NCBI GenBank assembly: GCA_021802485.1
Contig: JAJZXF010000016.1
Coordinates: forward strand, 1-39,448
Reading direction: 5' to 3'
Length of the DNA stretch: 39,448 bases
DNA from: Actinomycetes bacterium
Lineage (GTDB): Bacteria > Actinomycetota > Acidimicrobiia > Acidimicrobiales > JAJZXF01
In this document: in pieces, positions 32,964 to 35,381 of the stretch
Numbering within the stretch: the stretch's first letter is position 1
Layout of the letters: each line of letters begins with the position of its first letter
The notes under the pieces: model-generated
Database searches by the model: none
What the model was told of the DNA's origin: nothing
Seen by the model: only the letters and a program-made list of their open reading frames with translations
Made by a program: the position numbers and the translations under genes

Positions 32964-34637
32964 ATGATCGCGGCGATCTCGGTGCTTCGACCAGATGCTA
33001 GGGTTGAAAAAGTGAATCGCGCGACTCCTGGGAAGACAGTTCCCACCGAGCCTGCCCCGCCAATCACCAATCGAGTCCTAACAAGCCAGCTCACGGACCC
33101 AATCGAGCCGGGAATCGTAAGTGACAAGGATGCGAAGGCTCGGCACCGAGAGGTCCTGATCGTTTTCTCAGGCCTAATGCTGGGCATGCTTCTGGCCGCT
33201 CTCGACCAGACCATCGTTGCCACAGCACTTCCAACCATCGTCGGTGACCTTGGGGGGCTCTCACACCTCGCCTGGGTGGTCACCGCGTATCTCCTCACAG
33301 CGACGGCATCCACCCCTCTGTACGGAAAGATCGGCGACATGTATGGCCGCAAGCTGATCTTCCAGGTCGCCATCGTGATCTTCTTGGTCGGCTCAGCCCT
33401 TTCAGGGCTCTCGGCCAACATGACTGAGCTGATCGCGTTCCGAGCCTTCCAGGGTCTCGGGGCCGGTGGTCTCATGGTGGGCTCGCAGGCGATCATCGGG
33501 GACATCGTCTCACCCCGCGAGCGGGGCCGCTACCAAGGTTACATGGGGTCGGTGTTCGCTCTAGCAAGTGTGGCCGGCCCCTTACTCGGAGGCTTCTTCG
33601 TCGACAACCTCTCTTGGCGCTGGGTCTTCTACATCAACCTTCCCATCGGCATCGTCGCTCTATTCGTGACGAGCGCAGTTATGCACCTTCCCAAGAGGCG
33701 CTCGCCGCACCGTTTGGACTACCTGGGAACAGCGCTGCTCACCGCCGCTGTAACCAGCGTAATTCTCCTCACGACATGGGCGGGCACCGAGTATGCCTGG
33801 CTCTCTCCACAGATCATCGGCCTCGCAGGTGCAAGCGCTATCCTGCTCGCGTTTTTCATTCGCACCGAGCGGCGAGCGCCCGAGCCTGTGCTTCCGCCAC
33901 ATCTGTTCCGAAACCAACTCTTCGACATTGCAAATGCGGCTGGCTTCCTCCTCGGCTTCGTCATGTTCGGTGCGATTGTCTTCGTCCCGCTCCTGCTACA
34001 GGTAGTCTACGGATCGAGCGCGGTCATATCTGGCCTCCAGCTTCTCCCAGTGATCGGGGGAATGATGATCACCTCCATCGTCTCGGGAAAGTTGATCACC
34101 AAGCTTGGGACCTACCGCATCTTCCCTGTCATCGGAACGGCGCTGGTGGCCCTTGGCATGTACCTGATGTCGCTGCTCACCCCGCACTCCAGCTATACCG
34201 TCGCGGCAACTTACATGCTGGTCTTGGGCCTGGGAATGGGCCTCGTCGTCCAGGTGCTAGTGCTCGTGGTGCAAAACGCCGTGGAGTACCGGGACCTCGG
34301 GACCGCAACGTCGTCCTCTACTTTCTTCCGCACCATTGGCGGATCCTTTGGCGTGGCGATCTTCGGAGCCATCTTCTACAACCGGCTGGCAGTGAACATC
34401 CCCCGCGCACTTCCCCCGAGGGTACGCAAGCTGGTGCACGTGTCAAGCCTGCAAAACCCGGCCCACCTTCGATCACTTCCCCCGAGAATTCACGAGGGCA
34501 TCATCCTCGGCTTCTCCCAGTCGCTACACACCGTGTTCCTCTGGGCCGTTCCTCTTGCGTGCATCGGGTTCCTGATGGCTCTGCGCCTGAAGGATGTGCC
34601 TCTACGAGACTCCGTGGATGCAGAGCTCAAGCATTAG
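32964..34637 (+). CDS. DHA2-family (EmrB/QacA type) MFS drug exporter
   Basis: A 557-aa transporter with 14 predicted membrane helices. The first helix carries [25 protein letters not shown] (DHA2 motif D1), then [14 protein letters not shown] (motif A), [33 protein letters not shown] (motif B/antiporter region) and, in TM5, [19 protein letters not shown] (motif C of drug:H+ antiporters). The soluble N-terminus is about 55 residues. The start could be ATG 32964 or GTG 33012; the frame extends back to 32817 only through the IS1634 relic. Likely exports drugs or other amphiphiles by proton antiport. The end overlaps, tail to tail, the gene on the minus strand by 36 bp. Confidence 0.9.
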
Positions 34638-35381
34638 AAGCAATAGTCGGCCAGTTCGACCTGCACCGTACTGATCCCCGCGCATGGGGCGCTCGGACCA
34701 AGAGGCTGCGTTCACTGGCGCAACATGACGGCTCGCTTCGATCTCGTCGAGTTCCTTCTCGAGCTTGCCCACGAGATCTTCCACAGTGCCACGGAAATGG
34801 GCCAGCGCGAGATCAAGACGAAAGTCGAAAGCCGGCGCGACCTTCAGACCGTTGCGAACCGTCGTTGGCTTCTCCCGATTCGACACCGAAAAGGTCGTCG
34901 AACCTTCGCCTTCAAAGTGCTGGAATCCGATCAATTTCGAAAACTGACACTCCCGCGTCTGCTTCCTTCCTTGGAAGATCACCCGCGTGTTCGTCAACCA
35001 AAGCGTTCCGGAATCAATCGCTGTCGGAGTGGCCTCACCTTGAACATAGTGACCCCGCGTTGCCCCAACGCGATAGCGCACTGACCGACCCTGCAAGCTC
35101 CCAACCGAGATCGATACGCCGGTCGATGCGCCTTGCCAGTGCCCTGGACCACGCCCTTGCCCCACGAGCAAGGCTCCTGTTGCCGTAAAGAACACGGTCT
35201 CGCCGGATCCAAGCATGATCTCGTCCGAGCCGGAGCCCTGTTATTCTCGGGCTGCATGAACCAGCTCCGTGTACCAGTCCCGTTGCTCTTCCCATTGGGC
35301 AAGTGCGTGCTGGTACTCCTCGACCACCTTGCTTTGGCTTATGCCCTTCCCGCCTGGCCCTCTTCGCCGTTTCCAGAACAT
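34602..35381 (-). pseudogene. Conserved actinobacterial hypothetical (PH-like), interrupted by one in-frame TAA
   Basis: From ATG 35381 the frame runs MFWKRRRGPGGKGISQSKVV, EEYQHALAQWEEQRDWYTELVHAARE, then TAA (35243-35241), and continues in the same frame with QGSGSDEIMLGSGETVFFTATGALL, VRYRVGATRGHYVQGEATPTAIDSGTLWLTNTRVIFQGRKQTRECQFSKLIGF and FDFRLDLALAHFRGTVEDL to 34602. This is the full-length layout of a conserved family of PH-domain-like proteins of about 250 aa whose N-terminus is 'YxxALxxWxxQRxxYxxLVxxA'. The ATG is preceded by GGAGGTGAT (35385-35393), a perfect anti-Shine-Dalgarno match. The last 12 residues overlap the DHA2 gene. Only the internal ATG at 35216 could start a shortened 204-aa protein. 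Confidence 0.75.

Follow-up and report, generated by a model that had tools for sequence, protein, structure and literature searches.

A probable recent nonsense codon in a putative accessory gene of an uncharacterised actinobacterial protein family

We analysed a contig of 39,448 nucleotides (hereafter the window) from an actinomycete of the order Acidimicrobiales (assembly GCA_021802485.1, contig JAJZXF010000016.1). On its minus strand lies an interrupted gene (34602..35381, delimited by reading of the frame and by comparison with relatives), which opens with an ATG, closes with a TAG and contains a single internal TAA. The start ATG (35381-35379) is followed by 46 sense codons and then by the TAA at 35243-35241, after which 212 sense codons stay open in the same frame until the TAG at 34604-34602. 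A near-perfect Shine-Dalgarno sequence, GGAGGTGAT, is found on the same strand at 35385..35393, with 7 nt between GGAGG and the ATG, and its anti-Shine-Dalgarno pairing energy of -15.5 kcal/mol (calculated with a standard anti-Shine-Dalgarno sequence rather than one taken from this genome's own 16S) was not reached in any of 2000 22-mers drawn at random from the window. On re-reading, the positions that an earlier note on this DNA had given for the ATG, the Shine-Dalgarno spacing, the TAA and the end of the frame were all correct. The earlier note had also regarded the TAA as the sole defect of the gene. The frame does contain just one internal stop, but it extends ~30-40 residues past the usual C-terminal end of most relatives; tail length is variable across the family, and the extra tail may be a second change besides the TAA or may be normal family variation. 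GC content at third codon positions is 0.65 before the TAA and 0.65 after it, and among six other genes of the window it is 0.69-0.80 in five and 0.64 in one. The gene is present in a single copy within its own genome.

The 3' end of the interrupted gene overlaps the last 36 nt of a converging gene for a DHA2-type MFS efflux transporter (32817..34637, plus strand, true start downstream of 32817). On its other side lies the divergent frame of a DrrA-like ABC transporter ATPase (35269..36420, plus strand), the true start of which is downstream of 35269 and the profile match of which begins at about residue 70-88 of the frame; a permease accompanies it. Both flanking genes read cleanly. In the one genome available from the same genus, orthologues of the MFS and ABC genes (78% and 73% DNA identity, respectively) were found on separate contigs beside other genes, so that the two species differ at this locus. 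No match to the interrupted gene was detected anywhere in that genome, which is 89% complete, so that absence of the gene from this species is not certain, and tblastn of the two stretches that carry its MFS and ABC genes returned chance-level matches only (best E 2.9).

To define the family, we used the window protein with X at the position of the stop as the homology query and accepted matches at E <= 0.001. At order level 30 of 298 genomes gave a match, and at class level 41 of 395; the two samples overlap, and both counts include the window's own genome. The best of these matches reach 53% identity. With two genomes covered by the searches at genus and family level, the homologues compared were at most about 57% identical, and a scan of genome contigs yielded one relative (L054), from an Acidimicrobiaceae metagenome-assembled genome; on the strength of this one named match the relatives are taken as actinobacterial. 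Judged from these matches, the family is real, patchily distributed and apparently accessory. The window copy had no passing match in Pfam or NCBIfam, and a profile search with the family gave 0 matches in the PDB. DUF2510 was matched by 3 of 20 relatives. Searches for signs that the family is mobile or viral in origin found none: 50,697 phage records and 72,556 plasmid records gave no match, and neither did a pattern scan of viral contigs; 2 of 20 family members showed a weak match to one PHROG. A patchy family of this kind, lacking a Pfam or NCBIfam match for the window copy and a PDB match for the family profile, could deserve a family entry.

The majority of the better matches begin at query residue 13-26 and extend beyond residue 215, and thereby span the stop. 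Many relatives share with the window copy an opening [MV]F[E/D] and, after it, a leader that is helical and charged. When the 46-residue leader of the window copy (35244..35381, minus strand) was locally aligned on its own, it matched 14 of 48 relatives so well that at most 3 of 300 shuffles did equally well, and in the other 34 the leader was too diverged to tell homology. The proposal that the 46 codons before the stop encode the N-terminus of the family thus finds support in these 14 relatives, and homologues do carry an N-terminal extension. The TAA itself falls in the linker that separates the helical leader from a conserved domain containing a GRAM/PH-like motif. The protein is likened to GRAM or bacterial PH-like domain proteins (PF02893) by weak matches and by a short LTNxRVIFQG-type motif, which suggest that the conserved domain may be GRAM/PH-like. 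However, the matches of the window copy were subthreshold (E 0.18-0.19), its score of 12.1 bits lies below the curated Pfam cut-off of 23.6 bits and therefore outside membership of the family by that measure, and 0 of 20 family members matched GRAM at E <= 0.01. A single-sequence structure model of the protein had a mean pLDDT of 43.

Aligning the window copy with 48 relatives bears out the description of the gene as a conserved one with a single in-frame TAA. At the column of the TAA, which lies in the variable linker, the relatives carry F (11), Y (7), a gap (5), N (4), I (4) and others, and none of the 48 has a stop. The earlier note had allowed for readthrough or recoding of the TAA, yielding a long and a short product, and the frame is indeed open and conserved on both sides of the stop. 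Yet the stop is shared by no aligned relative, as a functional readthrough site would be expected to be, and the 80 nt that follow it fold with an MFE of -30.1, compared with -28.1 ± 3.2 for 300 mononucleotide shuffles, which speaks against a stimulating structure. The RF-1 release factor family has three matches in the genome, two of them in 446-aa frames, and rpoB has no internal stops. With the stop unconserved, RF-1-family factors present, rpoB normal and the RNA not specially structured, recoding is disfavoured: we rejected it as an explanation, consider programmed readthrough extremely unlikely, and find the earlier suggestion unsupported. Reassignment of the stop codon was likewise rejected, given the stop-free rpoB and the presence of the RF-1 family. 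TAA terminates 1 of 27 hand-picked frames of the window.

Breakage of the gene is not confined to the window copy. Of the 53 loci read, two others (L024 and L020) have breaks within the domain, away from the position of the TAA, and breakage thus recurs in the family without being specific to this site. Further low-scoring rows of the class-level search also contain stops, and several other apparent internal stops among the order- and class-level matches are natural protein ends. We then compared the residues that follow the TAA, counting a position as conserved when it reached at least 80% conservation across 30 chosen rows. Of 32 such positions after the stop, 28 are retained in the window copy, and the 29 other rows retain 20-29 of 29-32. 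The relaxed constraint expected downstream of the lesion in a nonsense pseudogene was therefore not seen; these kept residues imply that the lesion is recent, that the stop is an assembly error or that a shorter product is still under selection, and together with the equal third-position GC content across the stop they give no sign of long decay.

An assembly error would mean that the consensus, in a genome assembled in 152 contigs, carries a wrong or minority-strain base at this codon and that the gene in the cell is intact. The gene does look alive apart from one codon, with its strong Shine-Dalgarno sequence, its retained conserved residues and its one internal stop. Against this, the flanking MFS and ABC genes contain no such fault, and isolated substitution errors are uncommon in a short-read consensus. 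We consider a consensus error unlikely, and less likely than a recent nonsense mutation.

In a further reading the split gene would still be in use: ribosomes would end at the TAA and restart 24 nt downstream, so that leader and domain were made as two separate products. The internal ATG (35216) sits at the boundary between linker and domain, and the 204-aa frame that it opens (34602..35216, minus strand) includes the entire conserved domain. Restart after premature stops has been described for bacteria, and its efficiency is expected to drop with distance (PMC6728339). However, the internal ATG has no Shine-Dalgarno sequence, 50.6% of random sites pairing at least as strongly as it does (-3.7 kcal/mol), and the split was seen in no other species examined. 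Relatives moreover carry hydrophobic residues, including Met, at the position of the internal ATG, so that its presence is explained by the family sequence. Weak restart at this ATG, with some domain protein made, is possible, and regular use of the split gene appears quite improbable. A gene fission in progress, in which the TAA would divide leader from domain at the linker while the domain would still be made by restart 24 nt downstream, would, if true, explain the lack of decay in the domain; we regard it as very doubtful.

Overall, the locus is probably an accessory member of an uncharacterised actinobacterial family, and in this genome it carries one nonsense codon of recent origin. The most likely explanation is an ordinary gene that was inactivated recently, because the stop is found in one genome and the relatives read straight through. 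In support of a nonsense mutation, we observed no stop at the column in 48 relatives, a patchy distribution of the gene, a single copy, no match in the genus mate and conserved residues that are kept, although the residues retained after the stop would be equally expected if a shorter or restarted product were under selection. We infer the loss of function, its recency and the presence of the TAA in the cell rather than in the consensus alone. Ribosomes would start at the strong Shine-Dalgarno sequence and stop short of the conserved domain, releasing a peptide of 46 residues; full-length protein would not be made, and a small amount of the domain may arise by restart at the in-frame ATG. The gene resembles a unitary nonsense pseudogene in having one early in-frame stop in an otherwise well-conserved accessory gene that is intact in relatives, with homologous coding sequence in the same frame on both sides of the stop and relatives that are stop-free at the site. 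It differs in that there is one lesion only, which by sequence alone is not separable from a polymorphism or a consensus error. The label pseudogene is accordingly provisional, the kept residues being compatible with a recent lesion. As it stands the observation means little, being limited to one genome in which a single copy of an accessory gene is broken.

Other features of the window were recorded beside this locus. Adjoining the MFS gene, 32414-32983 (minus strand) is a multi-copy sequence, to which DNA on 6 further contigs of this genome is 70-76% identical. One copy (L058) contains a 522-aa frame without a Pfam match, which presumably resembles a transposase; the open piece in the window is only 121 aa, and the sequence looks like a decayed insertion element. 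The ~4 kb that separate the nucleotidyltransferase gene region from the MFS gene in the window (29131-33143) contain a 514-aa SEC-C motif protein and are missing in the genus mate, whose contig has the two as near neighbours. Beyond the ABC gene, 37233-37400 is 83% identical to 13308-13476 in opposite orientation, with a part-copy on another contig (C50), and is not a tRNA. At 37996-38828 (minus strand), a PIN-domain toxin-like frame adjoins a Phd/YefM-like antitoxin frame, the match of the latter lying just under the Pfam cut-off.
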